64,000 bases of DNA from Brachionus manjavacas (lineage: Eukaryota > Rotifera > Eurotatoria > Ploima > Brachionidae). Positions 37,301 through 62,661 of the stretch are shown in pieces; the stretch's first letter is position 1; each line of letters starts with the position of its first letter. The position numbers and the translations under genes were made by a program. Below the pieces are notes generated by a model. That model was not told the origin of the DNA and did no database searches. It was given only the letters and a program-made list of their open reading frames with translations. The stretch is taken from the NCBI GenBank assembly GCA_019054805.1, contig JAHQIY010000005.1, positions 603,501-667,500 of the forward strand, given 5' to 3'.

Positions 37301-40300
37301 TAAAAATCGGTTCCTGGATTCTTATTCTTAATATAGAGGATTTCGTTATACGGAGGATAGACTGTAATAGTTGATTTTCGAAAATTGGCGTAAATTTACT
37401 CTAAAAATGGATAATTTTAATGATCAAATACAAAGTATGATCCGCTTTTTAAAAAAGAATAAAAAATTTTATCAACAATTATTTATTTTAATGTTTTAAA
37501 CCATCCATTTTCAGATACTTTAATACTCTAAAATAATGTTTTTAGAACCAGAAAAGTCATTTTTTTGTCTTGAATTAAAATTTTTTAGATTTTTTTTTTA
37601 TTCATCATTGTCGATCAGTTTTTGTAAATGAATGATCAGAAGACTGACAACTTACTTCTTTTTTTTTAAAATAATTCTAAAATTTATCTTGAAATTAGAT
37701 CATTTGAATTTTTTAATCAAAACTTTAATTTGGAAATTAATGTAATTTGAAACTTAATGTACAGAAATAAAATATTCAATTAACTTTTTGCATCGTAGTT
37801 TAAAGAAAAATAGAAATTTTTTTAATAAATTATTTTATTTTAAAAAAATAATTTTTTCTGTAATTGTTTAATTAACTTTATAATTTTAACTTTCATTCTA
37901 TTTTAGAATTTCAAGATTAAAAATCTTAGGAAATAGATTTAAAAAAAAAAAAATTTTTTGTCAAATCTTTTGTCGTGTAAATCTCAAAAGATAATTAATA
38001 TCAAAAGATCCAAGAGCATATTTGATCAATGTCGATGAGCTCGACCAACATTTTTAAGTCAAAATTTTAAATTGTGAGAAAAATTAAAATTTTTCAAAAT
38101 TAATCATTGCTTATGCTAATTTAATAATTAATAATTAACCATCAGCATCTGTTGACAATTTAGTAGTTAGTTTTCACCTTGCTAAACAACTGCATCCTCA
38201 CTTGACTAAAAAGCTCTTTTAAAAAACAGACAATCTTCTTAAATAAAAAATTAAATTGCTAAAAATTTTAGGCTATTTGGGCGCATCGAACCCGTCGAGG
38301 TCATAGACTCGGTCAAGAGCATCGAGCCTGTCCACTCATCTTGTACACAATTTTTGGATATTTTGCTAACCGAGCCACAGCTCACTCCGTCACCCAGCTC
38401 GTCCTCTTCGCCACCATCGCCTCTCTCCTCATCCAGCTCATCAATCAACTTTCGCACTCTACCAATCCGCAAAAGACTCAAAAAAAGCCTCAGCATCAAA
38501 TCGACCAGTTCAACACTTCAATACGGAGTCAAAATACTGAACAAGGTTTTTGCCAAGAACACAACCAGTGAACCACCTGAGGCAGTGTCATTGAGCGAGC
38601 AAAAAATGCTTGCCAGACCAACCACTGACCTTTTTTTGCCAAGCAGAAAAATCCGCAAGCTGATACCGTTCAACAATGGCATAAAAAACCACGGCAACAC
38701 ATGCTTCATGAACTGTGTGCTCCAATCTTTGTTTCACTCGATGCCATTTGTTCACTTTTTTTTCACCGAATACGAAAAAACAAGGCGCAAAGTGGAACAG
38801 CAAGGCCTAAAAAACTGGACCAACAAACAACTCAGTCCATTTATTTTGTCCGAGCACATCCAGCGCATGCTCAAGTCACTGTGGCAAAACGCTTACGACC
38901 CGCTCTATTCCCACGAGCTAAAGCAGCTAATCGGATTTTTGAATCCGACCTTTGCCGGTGTGGAACAAAACGATTCGCACGAGTTTTGCATCTGGCTCTT
39001 GGACAGACTGAGCCAAGAGCTCACAGTTAAAATTGGTGCTGAGCCAGCATCAACTACATCTTACATAGACAAGCTATTTCGCATCGAGTTCAAGTCCACA
39101 GTCACATGTTCCAAATGTAATTACAAAAGTAGCAAACTAGAAACTGATATGATGCTTTCGCTGCCGCTACCGCAAGCCAGTGATGCACGCCGAGACAAGA
39201 ATCGCGTGTCACGCTGCCTCCTATACACTTACTTAATTGTGACCAGTGAAAAGACTTTGAGAAGTTTGCTCGCCGAAGCCGAGAGCCCGTACGAAAATGT
39301 CAAATCAAAGTTTTACATTGACCAAGAGAGTGACCGGTGCTACAAAATACCCTCAATAGTTCACCTGGTTGCTGAAAACCTGTTGAGCAAAAGCAATGGG
39401 TCGTTTGGTCACTTGGTCAAGAGTAAAATAAATCCGACATTCGGGGACTTGAGGCTGTTTTTGGCGCGCACTCTAAATCTAAATCCTAAAAGTTTGCTGC
39501 TATTGCAAATGGCCAAGATAGAAAGGGTGATTCGGGACACGGACCAGATTAGAGATGTGTTGTATTCTAGTTTGAGTAATTCGCCAGTGCCTAGACTCTT
39601 TGTGTATGAGATGGCCGAGGACAAAAAACCGTCCAAGCCCGTCGAGCCGGTCATCAATTTGCTTTGTTTTAATGTGTACGAAACCGAGACAAGTCCAAAC
39701 ACTTGCTACAGTCTGCCATTTTTGGTCAAAATCAATCGCGACTGTTCCTACATAGAGTTGAGTCAACAGGTTGTAAATGCACAGTCGAAATCTTTAAAAA
39801 CCAACAAATTGGAAAAGTATAAAGTGAGTTTATCTGTTTTTTTTATTTTTTAAATGTTAGAAATATTAATCAATTAATTTAATATAGAAAAAAGAGAAAG
39901 AGAAAAAAATAGTATCCTAAAATAATAGATAATTTTTTTTTTAATTCCAAAATTTCTTGTCTACTACTCTTGGAAATAAGGCGAAAATCAAGCTTTATTG
40001 CTTATTTTTTAAGAATATTAAAATAAATAAACTAACAAAAGTAGATTAAAGTTTTTAATTGAAGATATTGATTTTTTTAATCTTTTTGATTTTTGCTCGC
40101 TATCATTGTGAGTTTTTTTGGGAATATTGTAAAAATTTTATACCAAATAGTCAAAAACTGCGAAAATTCCGCAAAAAACATTCTTTTTTTTTAATTCAAA
40201 AATTCATCCAAAACTTGCTTTTAATAAATTTTTTTTTAAATTAATGATGTAACAATTGACAGAAAATTAATAAAACAAAATTGTATTTTAAAGAAAGAAA

Positions 40301-43201
40301 GCATATTAACCTGTAATATCAATAATTAAATTTATAAAAAGTTTAATTTTAATTTTGACTAATAGTTCCCTAATCTACAACATACCTGAATCTCTAAACC
40401 ATAGCTCTGCCCCGAACCCCGTTTAATTTTTATGTCACAATCAATTTTTGCTTTAAATGACGACTTAATCATTGATATGCTGGCTTAATATTTTTCCATA
40501 AAAACATATACTCATTTAGTTTTTTAAAGAAGTTTTAACAACCATGAAGAAAAAAAAATTTGATCAAATTAAATAAAATTAATTTAAAGTTTTTTATTTA
40601 GAACAAATTTTGAATTTATTTGTACAGTACTGCTACGCCATTATGATTTTACGTGAATTTACGAAAAATAACGATAATTGACGTGTATTTACGTACATGT
40701 TTTAAAACACGTTTTTTTACGTAAATAAAAAAACGTATATTTACGGGAAAATTCTAAAAGGACAAAAATCAAAAAATCTGCTTTTTTTCTTAATTATCTT
40801 GAAATTTTTAAAAATATAATACTAACATTTTTTAAATTTTTAGCTATTTTTATCTAAAATTAAAAAAAAAAGTAATTTTACGTAAATTCGCGTAAAATAA
40901 ATTAAAAAAAAGTAATAAAAAAAGTTAAGAAACGTAAGAAAATGTAAATTTAAAATGTAAATCATAAATTTTTAATTTGAAAATGTAAATCATAAATTTT
41001 TAATGACAAACACACCCGTCTAAACATTTGTAATGATTAGACGGGTTTCCATTTTTTCATTCACTTTTTTGATTACCTTTTTTTGAATATTTAGATTTTA
41101 TTGAATAAAAGTATTTTATAAAACCTTTTTTAAATGTTCTATATAAGATAAGCATTTTTCGTTATCCAAGCTTTTTTGGAAATCAATTATCGCCACAATT
41201 GCTTTGATTTGGTGTTATCGTTATAGGGACTGTGATTTTAAGGAATACATTTTCGTTGAAGAGACAACAGTTGTAGTTTTGGAAAAATGCCAATCTAAAA
41301 TCATCGTGGCGTAGCCGTACTATTAAAAACTAACAAAATTAATTAAACAAAAAATAACTTATTAAATTAATTTTTTAATAATAAAATATTTTTTTTACAT
41401 TTTTGAAAAATTTTTAAATATTCTGTCAATTTATTGTCTACGAAAAAAAAGCAAAATTTTACAAATTTCCAAAATTCTATCATTAATCAATCTACTTACC
41501 ATTTTTTCTTTATTTTATCTATTAAAAGCTTTCAATGATAATAACTCTACTAAATTTAAAACATTCACCATTAAAATTTACCCGATTTTTGAATAGATTA
41601 AAAAAAATTTTAGTTTACTTAAAATTTATTTTTCTAAGAGCATTCTGGACAAACTGTTCGCAATTTACTTGGTCACAGGTGACAATAACCAACTATACAG
41701 AATAAGTCCACTAGATGAGCTGCCGCTCTATATCGAAAGTGTGGAAAATGCCCTCAATAACACAATCAAAAATAGTGATGTAGCCGAACACGTTCGTATT
41801 TTAATAAAATGGAATTCTTACGAGGACATTTATTATTGCATAAAAGAACAAAACTTTACCCAAATCGATTACGATCTGTCCAAAAAGCTTATTTCCTATG
41901 ATCCGGCCGAGTACGATCTCCATTTCAGCGATTCAGTCAAGCTAGATGAGAAAAGCATCATTTCTCTGGAGACCTGTTTTGACATGTTTACCCAATGCGA
42001 AGAGCTGTCAGACGACAACTCTTGGACATGCACCAAATGCAAAAAACAAACCAACGCCTACAAAAAACTGAACATCAGCTCTTTGCCACCAATTTTGATA
42101 ATTCATTTAAAGCGCTTTTTCTATCAGTCTAGAACAAGCAATTCTAAATTAACCACCCCGGTCTGGTTCCCAGTGTCAAAATTGGACATGAGCAAATATG
42201 TGATTTCGGAAGAGGTGGCAGAGCCGCGACTAAATGACACCTATCTATCAAACACTTCTTCCAATGACTCGCAGCACATTTACGATTTGTACGCTGTTTG
42301 TAACCACAAAGGCCGCGACATGGCCAATGGTCATTACACTGCCTATTGCAAAAATTCATTTGACCTTAAATGGTATTGTTTTGATGACCCAAATTGCATT
42401 CCTATGTCAGACCTGAACCCGCAGTCAACCAGCCCCTTTTGGAAAATTTACAACAATGGAAGCGAAAACATTTTTACTGAAAATGCGTACATTCTTTTCT
42501 ATAAGAAGCGCGGGTGCATGGTCAACGAAAAATGGTGGGTCAATTATGTGGACCGAAGCCTGCTTGACTATGATGAATATGACTACTTTTTGCACCACTA
42601 TGACCTCATCGAATCAAAACAGAACCAAGAGCAAGACAAAAATCAGAAATTGTTCTGCAGAACTAATTTTCAGTCCATCTATGGCACAATCAAGCCCAGG
42701 TCGGAATCTAGAGAAGAAGTGGCTAGCTCGCCAACTAGTTATGGCTACGAGATTCCTGTTAATTATTATGATGAAAATAAAAGACCAAGAAGAGTGACAA
42801 ATAAGTATCAAACGCTGTGCGCTTCACTCAACAGCTCACCAAACAAGCTGAACCATTCTAATTCACCATCTACAGCGTCCTCCTCCTCCAAAGACTATGC
42901 AAATGGCACAATTTTGAATCACACAATCGGCTCGTCACACAACTTTGATGAATTGAATGTGACCAAGAAAATAAGCACTATGGATCTATCAGATGATTAT
43001 CTTAAGTTTCCAAACGACAATGAATTTATTTACAACACATCGCCAAGCTCAAATGTTTACTATCCACAGTCGGATTTTTTGACCGAGAGTAAATTGGCTG
43101 ATCAGAAAAAAAAATATGTCACAACTGTGAAAAGATCGGTCAACTCGAATCCCACTGCCGATCGGTACAGAAACCCGAACAGCATTGAAACTACTATTTA
43201 G
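31346..43201 (+). CDS. Ubiquitin-specific protease, USP31/USP43-like (three exons)
   Basis: Exons 31346-31641, 38272-39823 and 41639-43201 join in frame (AA|G and phase 0) to 1,136 residues. The enzyme is a cysteine deubiquitinase cleaving ubiquitin isopeptide bonds. The N-terminal 220 residues are Ser-rich and disordered, with poly-Ser at about 140-156. The Cys box GIKNHGNTCFMN carries the nucleophile Cys243, followed by QNDSHEFCIWLLDRL. The zinc-binding pairs are CSKC (near 380) and CTKC (about 747-750). The core ends with PPILIIHLKRFF, then the His box NGHYTAYC with His848 and the FDD pair near 865. The Ser/Asn-rich tail after about 930 is disordered. Insertion between the two CxxC pairs and the long tails match USP31/43. 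Introns of 6.6 and 1.8 kb are far larger than others here and are filled with repeats. Exons are distinctly GC-richer than flanks. A possible AATAAA lies at about 43288. Catalytic residues are intact. Confidence 0.92.
32488..32910. mobile_element. TIR element carrying a tandem array (in USP intron 1)
   Basis: The left end AAAGTCTTAAATGCTGCCGC (32488) to TTCA (about 32539) matches, inverted, the right end 32860-32910 (AAAGTCTCAAATGTGGCCGC when reverse-complemented) over about 51 bp with few mismatches. The inner part of the right arm (TTTTTGCCGTTCCATGCAG) is also part of the 40-bp repeat unit, so the array seems to have grown out of the right terminus. No coding capacity. Confidence 0.8.
32591..32892. 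repeat. 40-bp minisatellite, seven full units plus a partial
   Basis: Units start at 32591, 32631, 32671, 32711, 32751, 32791 and 32831, with a partial eighth from 32871. Each begins CGTTCCATGCAG, has a GATCGCGTCCTCATGAA centre and ends TTTTTGC. Units 1-4 have AGCCGTGATC and units 5-7 have AGTCATGATC, so the array contains two blocks that arose by separate amplification. It is strikingly GC-rich for this genome. Confidence 0.97.
33030..33142. repeat. Short foldback element
   Basis: AGTTGCATCAGCTGTTAAAG (33035) and AGTCTAATAAT continue to TGCAAAT. The stretch at 33098-33141 is the reverse complement with few changes (AGTTGAATCAACTGTCAAAG). Arms are about 40 bp with a loop of about 25 bp. No coding capacity; possible MITE. 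Confidence 0.65.
33540..34085 (-). other. GC-richer unassigned fragment in USP intron 1
   Basis: This stretch is less AT-rich than its surroundings. Read on the minus strand from about 34010 it gives an open reading LARDVTNSLTSTRRMLEN and CRPLRSLPDHPKTIIFPRY before a stop, with further protein-like text to about 33740 in broken frames. It is presumably a decayed mobile-element ORF, but the family is not recognised. Confidence 0.35.
34745..34885. repeat. Imperfect inverted repeat
   Basis: CATTTTTGGATTTAACATAC at about 34749 pairs with ATAGTATGCATAATCCAAAA at about 34857-34878. The AAGCTTAAAATTAAGCAAAT preceding it resembles the inner part of the foldback element at 28040-28335, suggesting a relative. 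Confidence 0.45.
35343..35510. repeat. Dispersed repeat, copy 1 (partner at 40362-40505)
   Basis: GGGGTCCGGGGCAAAGCACT through GATTCGGATATGTTATAGAT is the inverted counterpart of 40362-40430 (about 75 bp). Further right, TTATTGATATGTCGGGTTAA matches 40470-40495 in direct orientation. The two copies thus carry one module inverted relative to the other. Confidence 0.65.
35511..38271. other. AT-rich remainder of USP intron 1
   Basis: No gene or clear repeat. The intron ends with AAATTTTAG at 38271. Confidence 0.6.
40362..40505. repeat. Dispersed repeat, copy 2 (in USP intron 2)
   Basis: AATAGTTCCCTAATCTACAA through GCCCCGAACCCCGTTTAA is the reverse complement of 35343-35410, and the following CATTGATATGCTGGCTTAAT matches 35478-35500 directly. 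Confidence 0.65.
40625..41325. mobile_element. TIR element of about 700 bp in USP intron 2
   Basis: The left terminus CAGTACTGCTACGCCATTAT (40625) matches the inverted right terminus TAGTACGGCTACGCCACGAT (ending about 41325) over about 27 bp. The left end is preceded by TA. Inside, ATTTTACGTGAATTTACG (about 40647) and its inverse at about 40877-40905 form a nested palindrome, with many TTTACGTAAA words like those in the MITE at 58740-58868. No ORF of note. Confidence 0.65.
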
Positions 43202-46922: not shown

Positions 46923-49900
46923 TTGAATTTTTTATTTATTTTTAATTTTTTGTTAATGATTGACAAAGTGTTAAAATATTGGTTTGGATCAGAAGATTCT
47001 GATTTAAGCAATTTTGAAAACAAACCATGTTTCTGTTTGGAAGCAAACAGCGAAAATATCGATCAAATCCATGCTGAATTTTATGATTTGATTCAAGAAG
47101 CCGAGAATGGCTTTCTTGACAATTGGTTACTAGACAAACATGGAAAGCTCGCTTTTATTATTTTGTTAGAACAATTTTCACTATTAATCCACCGAAATTC
47201 ACCTGAAGAGTATAAAATAAATCCAAAGTGTGTCCAAATTAGTCTTGATATAATAGAGAGAAATAATTTACAATCATATTCATTACTTGAACAAATTTTT
47301 GTAGTCATGCCACTCATAACTTCCAATGATTTGTCTTTGGCAAACAAAGGTTTTGTCTTATTCAAAAATATAGCAGACCAAAGTCCCAACAAACAGAAAC
47401 CAATATTTTTCCAATATGTTAAATGGGCCAAAATTTATTTAGAAAATCTTAAAGAATATGACCGATGCCAAACTTTTTTTCTATATCCTACCATAAAAAT
47501 CAAAAGTGTTCACTCATCATCAGACAGTAAGTGCCTTATTTCCAACTCAGCTTCAAACAGAGAAAAAAATCAACCAGAATTGGTAAAAAAAAAAATTCTT
47601 TTTCTGCACGGACTTAGACAAAATGCGAACAAATTGAAAAAAAGAACTTCAAATTTGGCCAGAATGCTACGCGAATGTAATGTTTATGTTGAGTATTTAG
47701 ATGGAACTCATTCATATAGAAGTGGAAATAGAGATAGTTCTGATTCAGCATCGGCTATTGAATCACAAAGGGCTTGGTATCAGTATGATGAGAACAACAA
47801 AGAATATATTGGACTAGAAAAATCAATTGAATATGCTTTAAATTATGTCAAGCTTCATGGACCTTACATTGGTCTAATAGGATTTAGCCAGGGCGCAGTT
47901 TTAGCTTCGCTACTCACAAAATTATATCCCAAATTGTTCCACTTTGTGATAATTATAAGCGGGTTTGAGCCACAAGACTCAAAATATGGCAAATATATTT
48001 TTTCCATTGAACGGCCCTTTGATTTTGCATCAATGCACATTTATGGCAAAAATGACCGAATAATCACCAAAAATCGATCAGAAGATTTTTCAAAATGCTT
48101 CAAAAATCCTCTTTTATTCGAGCACCCAGACGGGCATTTTATGCCGCTTTCTTGGCCTAATGAAAAAATTTCTGATTTTGTCAAGTATCAGATCAAAATA
48201 AACAAATGTCCCAGATTTTTATCAGCTGCTGAACCTGAAGTCAAGATAAAACAAATAGATGATGCAATGCAAAGCTTTGATCTATTTGAAATACAATTTG
48301 ATGCGTTGTTTGAGTCCAGGGATACCAAGGAATTTGTCAATTCTTTAAAATTCAAAAATTTAGATTTCACTGCCCAAGACCTGTGCGTGTTTAATCCAGA
48401 TGAATCTCTGATCATTTTGTATTTATCGACTCAATTTTCTACCAGATTAGATGGCCAAAATTCTGAAAATTATTCGAATACGAGAAAATTACTCAAAATT
48501 TTACTCGATATCCAGGAAATCTCAAAATTTTCAAACACTTTTGTGTATCGTTTTTTCTACGATAAATGGAAGCTTTTGATTTTGCTCTGTGATTCAAGTT
48601 TCTGTGACAAAAGAAACCATGCAATTGACTTGTACACTTTTTTGGTAGAAAAATTTTTCCATCAAATTTTGTCAGACTTAAGATTCATTGACAAGCAAAA
48701 TGGTTCATATTTGTTCCAACAATTGACCAGTGTGATCCAATATGAGCCCGATGCGACCTCTCTGAGCGACTTGGCCAAGTACCTGCCTAGAATTCGATCA
48801 TCAATTGACAAAAGTTCACGCATTGGCCGCCAAATTGCGGCTAAACTCAACCCGATAAGTGATGCAGACTCGAAAATAAAGTCTTACAATCTATACAGAA
48901 AATTCTTGTCCAACATATGCAGTTTTATTGATAATTTGACCAAAAATTTGCATTCAAAAAATCCAAGACAAATTTTTCTAGTTGCCAGACATGATAAAAA
49001 AGTAATGAAAAGTCTATTAAATTTGCCATTGTCTGACTCAATAGTGAATCCAGTTGCTGAGCCAGTCGATGTCAGTTCGTATGATAAAATGAAGCCTTTG
49101 TACGACTGGCTCAGTGAAAATAAAGACCGTATTTTGAACAAAGAAAATCTGAAATTTGAGCGTGGAACAATTACTCCAGATGGCCGACTGGATCTTTGCA
49201 AGCAAGTGATCGGACCTAAAGGCATACAGCCTTTGTTAGAATCAATAAACAAAAATGAAAATGTTGATAGACTTTTGCTTGGAAATAACATAGTGGGAGA
49301 TCAAGGAGGCAATTTGATAGCCGAATTTATCAAAAGTGGCAGCTCACCTTTGGCAATCTGGTACATTGCGGGGAATAATTTGACCGCAAAAGGCATACAA
49401 CCAATAGCTGATGCGCTTGTCAACGATACAAAAGTGACAGCTTTATGGCTGAAAAGAAATCCGCTTAAAGCACAAGGTATGATTCATATAGGTAATTTGA
49501 TGCGCTACAACAGCACCATTTCTACATTGGACTTGTTGAATTGTGGTCTGTTGGACAGTGGTATTGAGATATTAATGGAAGCGTTGAGTGCAAATAAATC
49601 ACTTAAAAATTTGTACCTAAGTGCGAATGGTATTAGTCCACTTGGCTTAAAAAGTATTAAAAATTACTGGACTGGAAATTTGGAGACTTTATTTTTGGGT
49701 GCAAATCGCATTGGCGACGATGGAGCTAAGATTGTGGCAGAAATTTTAAAAACTGATTCAAAGTTAAGCAGGCTTAACATGACTTCTAGTCGAATCGGAC
49801 CCGAAGGCATGAAATATTTGGCCCAAAGTCTGCACAGTAACAAAAGCTTGTTGCTGTTGGATCTGGGCTATATGAAAGCTAGCATGGATATTGGTGAATT

Positions 49901-50234
49901 GGGAAATTTTATTCAAGACGAAGGCGCTGAATACTTGGCCCAAATGATCAGAAAAAATAATTCATTATTGAGTTTGAATGTGAATAACAATCACATGACT
50001 AGAATTGGAATTATGAAAATAAGAGATGCGGTCCGGGATAACGATAGTCTGATACAATTGGATTTTTCACTTGGACATGGACTTTATATTGACAAAATTA
50101 TCATTGCTGAAATAAACGAAAAATTGAAATTTAACAAAGGAAAATTAATTAGTCAAAAACCTGACTTTGATATCGAAGAACTTTTTATTCCATTTCATGT
50201 TAAAGAAATATACAGTGTTTATAGGACTCATTGA
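46923..50234 (+). CDS. Three-domain protein: DUF924, FSH1-type serine hydrolase and leucine-rich repeats
   Basis: An intronless frame of 1,103 codons. Met12 (46956), immediately before VLKYWFG, is the more likely start, since residues 1-11 are A/T-derived. Residues 15-190 resemble the DUF924 family (VL.FWFG; LDNWLLDKHGKLAFIILLEQ; the PL..S.D... block). Residues 223-422 are an FSH1/OVCA2-type alpha/beta hydrolase: LFLHGLRQNA, then GFSQG with nucleophile Ser322, Asp378 in YGKNDRI and His405 in HPDGHFMPL, a complete triad. Residues 430-745 are helical and unassigned. Residues 760-1070 are ribonuclease-inhibitor-type LRRs of about 28 residues (GIQPIADAL..., LKNLYLSANGISPLGLKS). No signal peptide or membrane helix is evident. 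The substrate is unknown. AATAAA begins a few bases past the stop. Domain calls are firm; biological role is unknown. Confidence 0.88.
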   Translation: MNFLFIFNFLLMIDKVLKYWFGSEDSDLSNFENKPCFCLEANSENIDQIHAEFYDLIQEAENGFLDNWLLDKHGKLAFIILLEQFSLLIHRNSPEEYKINPKCVQISLDIIERNNLQSYSLLEQIFVVMPLITSNDLSLANKGFVLFKNIADQSPNKQKPIFFQYVKWAKIYLENLKEYDRCQTFFLYPTIKIKSVHSSSDSKCLISNSASNREKNQPELVKKKILFLHGLRQNANKLKKRTSNLARMLRECNVYVEYLDGTHSYRSGNRDSSDSASAIESQRAWYQYDENNKEYIGLEKSIEYALNYVKLHGPYIGLIGFSQGAVLASLLTKLYPKLFHFVIIISGFEPQDSKYGKYIFSIERPFDFASMHIYGKNDRIITKNRSEDFSKCFKNPLLFEHPDGHFMPLSWPNEKISDFVKYQIKINKCPRFLSAAEPEVKIKQIDDAMQSFDLFEIQFDALFESRDTKEFVNSLKFKNLDFTAQDLCVFNPDESLIILYLSTQFSTRLDGQNSENYSNTRKLLKILLDIQEISKFSNTFVYRFFYDKWKLLILLCDSSFCDKRNHAIDLYTFLVEKFFHQILSDLRFIDKQNGSYLFQQLTSVIQYEPDATSLSDLAKYLPRIRSSIDKSSRIGRQIAAKLNPISDADSKIKSYNLYRKFLSNICSFIDNLTKNLHSKNPRQIFLVARHDKKVMKSLLNLPLSDSIVNPVAEPVDVSSYDKMKPLYDWLSENKDRILNKENLKFERGTITPDGRLDLCKQVIGPKGIQPLLESINKNENVDRLLLGNNIVGDQGGNLIAEFIKSGSSPLAIWYIAGNNLTAKGIQPIADALVNDTKVTALWLKRNPLKAQGMIHIGNLMRYNSTISTLDLLNCGLLDSGIEILMEALSANKSLKNLYLSANGISPLGLKSIKNYWTGNLETLFLGANRIGDDGAKIVAEILKTDSKLSRLNMTSSRIGPEGMKYLAQSLHSNKSLLLLDLGYMKASMDIGELGNFIQDEGAEYLAQMIRKNNSLLSLNVNNNHMTRIGIMKIRDAVRDNDSLIQLDFSLGHGLYIDKIIIAEINEKLKFNKGKLISQKPDFDIEELFIPFHVKEIYSVYRTH

Positions 50235-61560: not shown

Positions 61561-61980
61561 CATTTATTTTTAGCAGAAAAATGGCATCAAAAAAAGCTAT
61601 TTTTTAGATGACGTCAATTAGACGATGTAAAGTGTTAAACGCCAGCTGATAATCAAAAATATTTTCAGATTTTAAATTACTTTAAATTGAAATTTAAAAC
61701 TAATTTTTATTTTGGTGACGAAAAAAATTGTGGTCGGGTGCGGGAAGAGAAAAAAAAATTATTTTATTTCAATTTGACTTTTAGTCACGTTAGAATAAAA
61801 TTCTTTGACGTCAATCAATTTTTAAAAATACATCGATTGAACAGTTTTAATAGTTAGAACTTTTGTACAAAACGTCACTGAATACAAAATAAAATACTTG
61901 AACACATCACGTATATTTACTTTTATTCACATCCTGTTTATTCCTAAATAGCTATTGATGTAATCTAAAAATTCTAACCA
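61561..61980. other. Upstream region of the IL-17-like gene
   Basis: AT-rich with a TGACGTCA-like cluster: GATGACGTCAATTAGACGAT at 61607 and TTTGACGTCAATCAA at 61804. Such TGACGTCA words are CREB/ATF-type sites in animals; here this is only a sequence resemblance. Confidence 0.4.
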
Positions 61981-61987
61981 TATAAAA
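61981..61987 (+). promoter_or_regulatory. TATA box of the IL-17-like gene
   Basis: TATAAAA lies 57 bp before the start codon. Transcription would be expected to begin about 25-30 bp downstream, near 62008-62014, leaving a short 5' UTR. Position and consensus fit well. Few other genes in the window show such a motif. Confidence 0.65.
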
Positions 61988-62037
61988 ACTCAGTTTCCAT
62001 ATCTAATAGCACAAATTGTCAAGCTAGAATTCAAAGA

Positions 62038-62661
62038 ATGAGAATAAAACTTGAAGTGTTATGTTTATTTGTAATTTTCATTAATCTATCAAGACGTTCC
62101 TCTTCAGTGAGACCTAAGCGGAAAATGGCTAGTCTAGAGGAATTTGAGTATGTTAACCAAGAAAAAACAGCTAACTTAATTGGGTGTAAAGATTACTCGG
62201 AAGGCGAAATGAAGCGCCTGCTGGAAAAAAGCTTCAGATTAAATATAGACAAAATTTTGGATGCCATCGAATTCTATCCGCCAGTGCAACTTAAATATGC
62301 CAGAAATATTATGAACGCAAGTGAGCCAGATACCAGGAAAAATTATTTAATTCATGGAAACACGAATTGTTCTATTAACAAGCAAACAACTTGGCAAGAA
62401 AACCAAATTTCAATTTGTCCACACCATTTTGTCGAGCTAAGACGCCAAGACCGCTATCCGTTTGTCATCAAACAGGCAGTCTGCAATTGCAAGTCATGTC
62501 TAGATGTAAAAAGCGAATTTTTAAAGTGTATACCAAATTATATTGTTAAGCCTGTTCTAATAAGACACATATGTCTTTCCAATGGCTACTATGGTTGGAA
62601 AAGAGCTTTTGAGTATGTGCCAGTGTCTTGTTCATGCAAGCATTTATTACATGTTGACTAG
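62038..62661 (+). CDS. IL-17-like secreted cytokine
   Basis: An intronless gene of 207 codons. The N-terminus MRIKLEVLCLFVIFINLS is a signal peptide, followed by a basic RPKRK (25-29) that could be a proprotein-convertase site. Residues about 36-125 are a poorly conserved pro- or N-terminal region. The C-terminal domain carries the IL-17 signature: ICPHHFVELRRQDRYPFVIK, then QAVCNCKSCL (IL-17: .. C.W.....D..R.P..i.eA.C.C..C), IVKPVLIRHICL and the terminal PVSCSC (IL-17: PVGCTC). Cysteines at 127, 149, 151, 154, 179, 198 and 200 fit the IL-17 cystine-knot-like pattern, with extra C111 and C164. IL-17 proteins are homodimeric ligands of IL-17R/SEFIR receptors in innate immunity. Homology rests on motif spacing; receptor and function are unknown. 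Confidence 0.8.
   Translation: MRIKLEVLCLFVIFINLSRRSSSVRPKRKMASLEEFEYVNQEKTANLIGCKDYSEGEMKRLLEKSFRLNIDKILDAIEFYPPVQLKYARNIMNASEPDTRKNYLIHGNTNCSINKQTTWQENQISICPHHFVELRRQDRYPFVIKQAVCNCKSCLDVKSEFLKCIPNYIVKPVLIRHICLSNGYYGWKRAFEYVPVSCSCKHLLHVD

Follow-up and report, generated by a model that had tools for sequence, protein, structure and literature searches.

The question raised by this locus is where an animal could have obtained a gene that encodes, in one frame and in this order, a DUF924 domain, an FSH1-type hydrolase, a helical middle segment, and a ribonuclease-inhibitor-type leucine-rich-repeat (LRR) array. The gene lies on the forward strand of a 64,000-nucleotide stretch of the Brachionus manjavacas genome (contig JAHQIY010000005.1, positions 603,501 to 667,500; here called the window). 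Through genome-wide searches, we identified full-length relatives of its product in a few bacteria, and on this basis we think it most probable (roughly 0.65) that the whole gene, already fused, was acquired anciently from bacteria and is now a naturalized animal gene.

The open frame from 46923 to 50234 (+) was confirmed; its first codon, a TTG, is a start only under translation table 11, and the first in-frame ATG, at 46956, begins a coding frame of 1092 codons that closes with a TGA stop. The residue numbers of the first-pass annotation are 11 too high for this reason: its triad of Ser322, Asp378, and His405 is complete, as it had claimed, but consists of Ser311, Asp367, and His394. The frame is uninterrupted, again as claimed, and far exceeds the longest frames arising by chance: when the window was shuffled base by base 200 times, the longest open stretch in the three forward frames was 153 codons, and 200 shuffles of the open frame itself gave 150. 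That annotation's single exon is supported at the level of the reading frame, which runs without interruption and can be aligned with bacterial proteins from one end to the other.

Full-length relatives in bacteria

The peptide DGRLDLCKQ, which marks the entry to the LRR array, was converted into a degenerate DNA pattern and searched for in bacteria and archaea, each species being represented by one genome; it occurred at at least 118 loci from many bacterial phyla. With one viral contig, 119 motif loci were listed, and 5 of them also hold DUF924/FSH1, each time in one frame. By blastp, residues 4 to 1092 align with a protein from a deltaproteobacterial metagenome-assembled genome (MAG) (L022; 1123 codons from stop to stop) at 28% identity (E 1e-131), and four other proteins (L023 of Pyxidicoccus fallax, L084, L094, and L024) each aligned in two pieces over most of the length. 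The multiple alignment is colinear across all four parts, with a start shared with L094 and an EIYSVYRTH end shared with L022 and L023. When genomes were searched with this alignment, full-length matches were found in 2 of 195 (G002 and G145), 1 of 282 (G004), 4 of 317 (G001, G003, G004, and G621), and 1 of 71 (G005); these sets overlap, and the full-length protein is present in seven distinct genomes in total, the five named ones being Myxococcota.

Because full-length relatives stand in bacteria, the fusion is not an animal invention. The first-pass annotation had pointed out that DUF924 and FSH1/OVCA2 are normally stand-alone proteins; the fused architecture is nevertheless present in seven bacterial genomes and is not unique to this locus, and an animal-specific fusion is rejected. 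With the DUF924-FSH1-LRR proteins of Myxococcota (L196 of P. fallax and the MAG proteins L022, L084, L094, and L197), the rotifer protein shares the four-part order, the colinear ends, the LRR entry motif, and the SVYR end. It differs from them in a DUF924 domain that is only 18 to 23% identical and lacks the PxRN motif described below, while its LRR is 39 to 47% identical.

It could be argued that the animal assembled the same fusion independently, from FSH1 and LRR genes of its own plus a bacterial DUF924, and its genome does contain two other FSH1 genes as well as other LRR genes. However, the domain order, the DUF2828-like middle, the LRR entry motif, and the SVYR end are all common to the bacterial proteins, and the animal LRR is far closer to the bacterial family (up to 355 bits by blastp) than to the LRR loci of its own genome (57 bits at most). 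Given the full-length alignment, we regard independent fusion as very unlikely. The genome also contains another long LRR protein frame, of 1063 codons (L007, G000:C20).

Relatives that span the full length are also what one would expect of an assembly artifact or of bacterial contamination. Against this, the window belongs to a contig of 6.97 Mb (the genome comprises 114.17 Mb in 61 contigs), and animal-type genes lie on both sides of the frame. GC content by codon position is 0.40/0.30/0.32, and the third-position value (GC3) lies within the range of 0.22 to 0.53 seen in eight neighboring frames; the flanks of the gene have 18 to 19% GC. Size and low GC content of the genome would be in keeping with a monogonont rotifer, about nine assemblies having 25 to 31% GC (PMC11954553). 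An identity of about 30%, together with AT-rich codons, fits no bacterial donor that we compared, and we regard contamination or an assembly artifact as very unlikely.

A viral or plasmid carrier was considered and rejected. The scan of viral contigs with the whole protein found no relative, and a search of 72,556 plasmid records returned no FSH1, DUF924 matches in 19 records, and one weak match to the middle-LRR part. The one viral contig with the LRR motif (L014, IMGVR_UViG_2687453458_000001) carries an LRR-only gene that groups with cyanobacterial members.

Domain kinship and probable direction of transfer

Trees were built separately for the individual domains, and it is the LRR tree that groups the animal protein with the fused bacterial proteins. 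In a tree of 107 rows, the animal protein falls in a nine-row clade (Shimodaira-Hasegawa-like approximate likelihood-ratio test [SH-aLRT] support, 100) with the fused bacterial proteins, L069, and L195, and the remaining 98 rows fall outside. This tree used 97 motif loci (segments of 330 to 480 amino acids), six loci being given separately or skipped; L192, L193, L194, and L184 were absent owing to pattern mismatch. L192 to L194 were added to a careful tree of 31 rows, for which 20 of the 97 other rows were hand-picked, and there an 11-row clade that includes four Beggiatoales rows received support of 100/100. The full-length bacterial homologues and this LRR clade make horizontal acquisition from bacteria, which the first-pass annotation had entertained, the best-supported origin of the gene.

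Several observations weigh against this origin. No close donor was found: the closest bacterial identity is about 30% overall and 47% in the LRR. In the DUF924 tree, the animal protein lies apart from the fused bacteria, with a branch length of 3.83, and a constraint grouping it with them was not rejected (p 0.135). In the FSH1 tree (13 rows), the animal domain groups with the animal's own two other FSH1 genes (81/82, flagged as a meeting of long branches), although by blastp it scored slightly higher against six fused bacterial domains (96 to 120 bits) than against those two genes (97 and 79 bits). The bacterial full-length rows alone were not rejected as a clade in the LRR tree (p 0.279), nor were the seven bacterial rows in the full-length tree (p 0.097), and a clade of the animal protein plus the bacterial full-length rows in the LRR tree gave p 0.074, so that placement inside the larger clade is undecided. 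Finally, the eukaryotic comparison consisted of the animal's own genome, which leaves room for a wider eukaryotic family. Since neither FSH1 nor DUF924, both on long branches, has a supported placement with the fused bacteria and their trees do not settle the origin, joint transfer of all parts would rest on colinearity and the LRR and not on every domain tree.

These points bear on the reverse scenario, in which an old eukaryotic family was lost in most lineages and a few Myxococcota received the gene from a eukaryote. FSH1 is rare in myxobacterial genomes (6 of 189 at E 1e-15 or better, two of the six being the fused protein) and, as noted, absent from the plasmid records; the full-length bacterial copies are patchy in all four genome sets; and the FSH1 tree puts the animal domain, weakly, with its own genome's FSH1 genes. 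However, LRR loci bearing the shared entry motif occur in many bacterial phyla, and Beggiatoales have middle-LRR proteins without enzymes, which together argue that the parts were assembled in bacteria. Moreover, the bacterial copies are deeply split (LRR 51 to 92% identical among themselves), and the animal copy lacks introns. On balance, we think a eukaryotic origin unlikely.

Under acquisition from bacteria, the donor would have been a bacterium of or near Myxococcota with a ready fusion of DUF924, FSH1, a DUF2828-derived helical piece, and an RI-type (ribonuclease-inhibitor-type) LRR. An ancestor of this animal, probably a monogonont rotifer, would have taken the whole gene into its germ line, where it would have been retained without gaining introns. 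Rotifers and other animals are known to have received genes from bacteria, and most of these encode enzymes (cf. PMC3499245). Here, what appears to have been adopted and retained is a complete four-part protein of 1092 residues, already assembled.

The hydrolase, DUF924, and middle segments

In the hydrolase part, Pfam FSH1 (PF03959) matches with 156.6 bits (cut-off 21) over profile positions 4 to 204 of 211, and the domain also matches the structure of yeast FSH1. Ser311, Asp367, and His394 align with the triad of the family, and the triad is intact in the animal protein and in 5 of the 7 bacterial full-length proteins. In the other two, from P. fallax (L196) and G145 (L198), the nucleophile Ser of the animal copy is replaced by Ala (GFAQG), and the hydrolase part is probably inactive for this reason; the LRR is kept in both. 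According to one report (PMC7077851), human OVCA2 has a Ser-Asp-His triad, and OVCA2 and yeast FSH1 favor long-chain alkyl esters. The rotifer domain shares the fold family and the triad with these enzymes, but they are single-domain proteins, whereas here the hydrolase stands within a 1092-residue fusion. The intact triad makes it probable that the animal protein is an active acyl hydrolase, positioned close to whatever its LRR binds or under the control of that partner. In our proposed mechanism, the product would be soluble and intracellular; its LRR solenoid would bind a macromolecular partner, close to which the FSH1 domain would hydrolyze a long-chain acyl ester or thioester.

Two further FSH1 genes and a short fragment stand in tandem elsewhere in the genome (G000:C7:4520531-4522773; L134, L135, and L137). 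In myxobacteria, FSH1 was seen behind an FAD/NAD oxidoreductase in one frame in both of the proteins examined (L187 and L189) out of four nonfused ones, which qualifies the earlier statement that FSH1 is normally a stand-alone protein.

DUF924 has fared differently. Pfam DUF924 (PF06041) matches the animal protein with E 2.5e-20 and 73.8 bits (cut-off 27), but only profile positions 1 to 156 of 180 are covered; in the five bacterial fused proteins scanned (L196, L197, L198, L084, and L201), the match reaches position 178 or 179. Toward its C-terminal end, the domain has a PxRN motif, which was defined in this analysis and not derived from a database. All 37 bacterial rows carry it (6 of 6 fused ones and all 31 others, the latter coming from 32 loci of which 31 gave a stretch longer than 110 amino acids), but the animal DUF924 lacks it. 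Mean identity of the animal protein to the seven fused bacterial proteins is 20% for DUF924, 31% for FSH1, 16% for the middle, and 44% for the LRR, compared with 41, 44, 22, and 53% across the deepest bacterial split; the resulting ratio is lowest for DUF924 (0.49, versus 0.69, 0.73, and 0.83 for the other three parts). Judging from these alignments, the best reading is that the animal DUF924 lost the conserved motif after transfer while the triad and the LRR were kept, and it may now be at most a structural piece. No other DUF924 match was found in the animal's own genome. The first-pass annotation spoke of an enzyme pair; both domains do match their profiles, but the pair is doubtful because DUF924, having lost PxRN, is not an intact copy.

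The middle segment had been described as an unassigned stretch of 300 residues and a possible new domain. Part of it is a diverged DUF2828 (PF11443) piece of about 80 to 110 residues, as far as profile comparison can tell, while the remainder of residues 416 to 690 has no family match. The animal match is weak in itself (13.7 bits, cut-off 29); the piece is called because one homologue passes the cut-off (L193, 32.8 bits) and two fall just short of it (L192, 28.8; L195, 27.9). Among seven aligned middles, six match at E 10 or better, the best at 4.4e-7. The likeness extends to profile positions of about 180 to 300 and is thus only a fragment of a 405-position family. We claim no fold for the middle, since its model, built alone, reached a mean predicted local distance difference test (pLDDT) score of 59.2 and a profile search of the Protein Data Bank with it gave one match only, at E 4.1. 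No second match to the segment was found in the animal's own genome.

The LRR array and its partners

The C-terminal array had been credited with at least eight ribonuclease-inhibitor-type repeats, and this statement is right. Pfam finds LRR_6 units (E 1e-9), and an AlphaFold model contains 11 repeats of a strand and a helix between residue 744 and about residue 1067, with a spacing of mostly 26 to 29 residues. The model, made from a seven-row alignment, has a mean pLDDT of 61.6, with a helical DUF924, a hydrolase of moderate confidence, a confident LRR, and a middle mostly below 50.

Top Foldseek matches of the model in the Protein Data Bank were chains of NOD2, ribonuclease inhibitor, NLRP, and axonemal LRR proteins. 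Together with the bacterial LRR fusions to varied enzymes described below, these matches invite the idea of an immune-type sensor, in which the LRR would recognize a foreign or stress ligand and switch the hydrolase as NOD-like receptor (NLR) proteins switch their effectors. In the predicted structure, however, the Foldseek match mirrors the LRR fold in general. The rotifer protein resembles ribonuclease-inhibitor-type LRR and NLR proteins in this fold and in a repeat length of about 28, but it has enzyme domains where NLR proteins have NACHT, and its LRR sequence is closest to the bacterial family. Neither NACHT/NOD nor any other ATPase is among its Pfam matches, the PADLOC anti-phage models matched 0 families in four member proteins, and the gene occurs as a single copy, its genome giving no hint of a diversified family. 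Against NCBIfam, all matches were weak and lay well under the cut-off. Without a NACHT or PADLOC match, the protein is neither an NLR nor a listed defense protein; a defense system was rejected on the PADLOC result, and an immune role seems to us improbable. The protein may still work like a simple sensor-effector, and the regulated hydrolase or intracellular sensor suggested by the first-pass annotation is a candidate role.

Other bacterial members of the LRR family have different partners. In the order of Candidatus Marithrix (Beggiatoales), the LRR occurs in 4 of 42 genomes, three of them with the middle piece and none with the enzymes. The middle-LRR proteins of Ca. Marithrix and other Beggiatoales (L195, L192, and L193) thus share the DUF2828-like piece and an LRR of the same family with the rotifer protein but lack DUF924 and FSH1. 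In two Beggiatoales loci, an aldo/keto reductase gene adjoins the LRR gene in the same orientation (L192:717-1484 and L194:765-1547, both on the minus strand); in L184:1396-3849 (-), an aldo/keto reductase is joined to a middle-LRR unit, and in L123:3090-5786 (+), a short-chain dehydrogenase (SDR) is joined to the LRR. Ten long members were searched for additional domains, and in eight of them no family other than the LRR appeared; stop-to-stop frames in GC-rich genomes may exceed the true genes.

From these few cases, the LRR looks like a constant core and the enzymes like exchangeable outputs. A bolder and more doubtful proposal is that there exists an undescribed bacterial class of proteins in which an LRR module, constant in its entry motif and SVYR end, is combined with exchangeable enzymes (DUF924-FSH1, aldo/keto reductase, or SDR), and that one of these was domesticated by an animal as an intracellular, ligand-controlled hydrolase. 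Selection would then have kept the LRR everywhere, with different enzyme parts decaying by lineage, and the LRR, not catalysis, would be the conserved function. Among the open-licence papers searched, we found no mention of DUF924 and, among those on rotifer gene transfer, FSH1, LRR, and Myxococcus, no report of this protein or of an enzyme-LRR class; our data point to such a class. The gene offers a direct test of the part that an LRR plays when it is fused to a hydrolase and no NACHT ATPase is present, and of the reasons for which the enzymes may decay and the LRR persist.

Table 1. Coordinates, within the window, of the fusion gene, its parts, and two neighbors
Feature	Position	Strand	Remarks
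Whole coding frame	46956..50234	+	1092 aa, ATG to TGA; end-to-end alignment to bacterial homologues
DUF924 domain without C-terminal PxRN part	46968..47465	+	residues 5-170; profile 1-156 of 180
FSH1 serine hydrolase domain	47586..48152	+	residues 211-399; Pfam E 9.5e-46, PDB 1ycd E 7.8e-17
Ser311, predicted nucleophile (GFSQG)	47886..47888	+	family alignment
Asp367, predicted triad acid	48054..48056	+	family alignment
His394, predicted triad base	48135..48137	+	family alignment
Middle segment, predicted helical, low model confidence	48201..49025	+	residues 416-690; structure model
DUF2828-like piece	48630..48872	+	residues 559-639; 13.7 bits, below cut-off 29
LRR entry motif (F-x-RGT...DGRLDLCKQV), family signature	49155..49208	+	residues 734-751
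RI-type LRR array, 11 predicted strands	49185..50063	+	residues 744-1036
C-terminal SVYR signature	50214..50225	+	residues 1087-1090
USP, split over two frames	38255-39853 and 41597-43201		neighbor gene
IL-17 domain in open frame	61978-62661	+	Pfam E 5.3e-8

Besides the two neighbors in Table 1, the surroundings of the gene include an acetyl-CoA transporter (Acatn) split over two frames, as well as DnaJ/CSL, sulfotransferase, and glutathione S-transferase (GST) frames.

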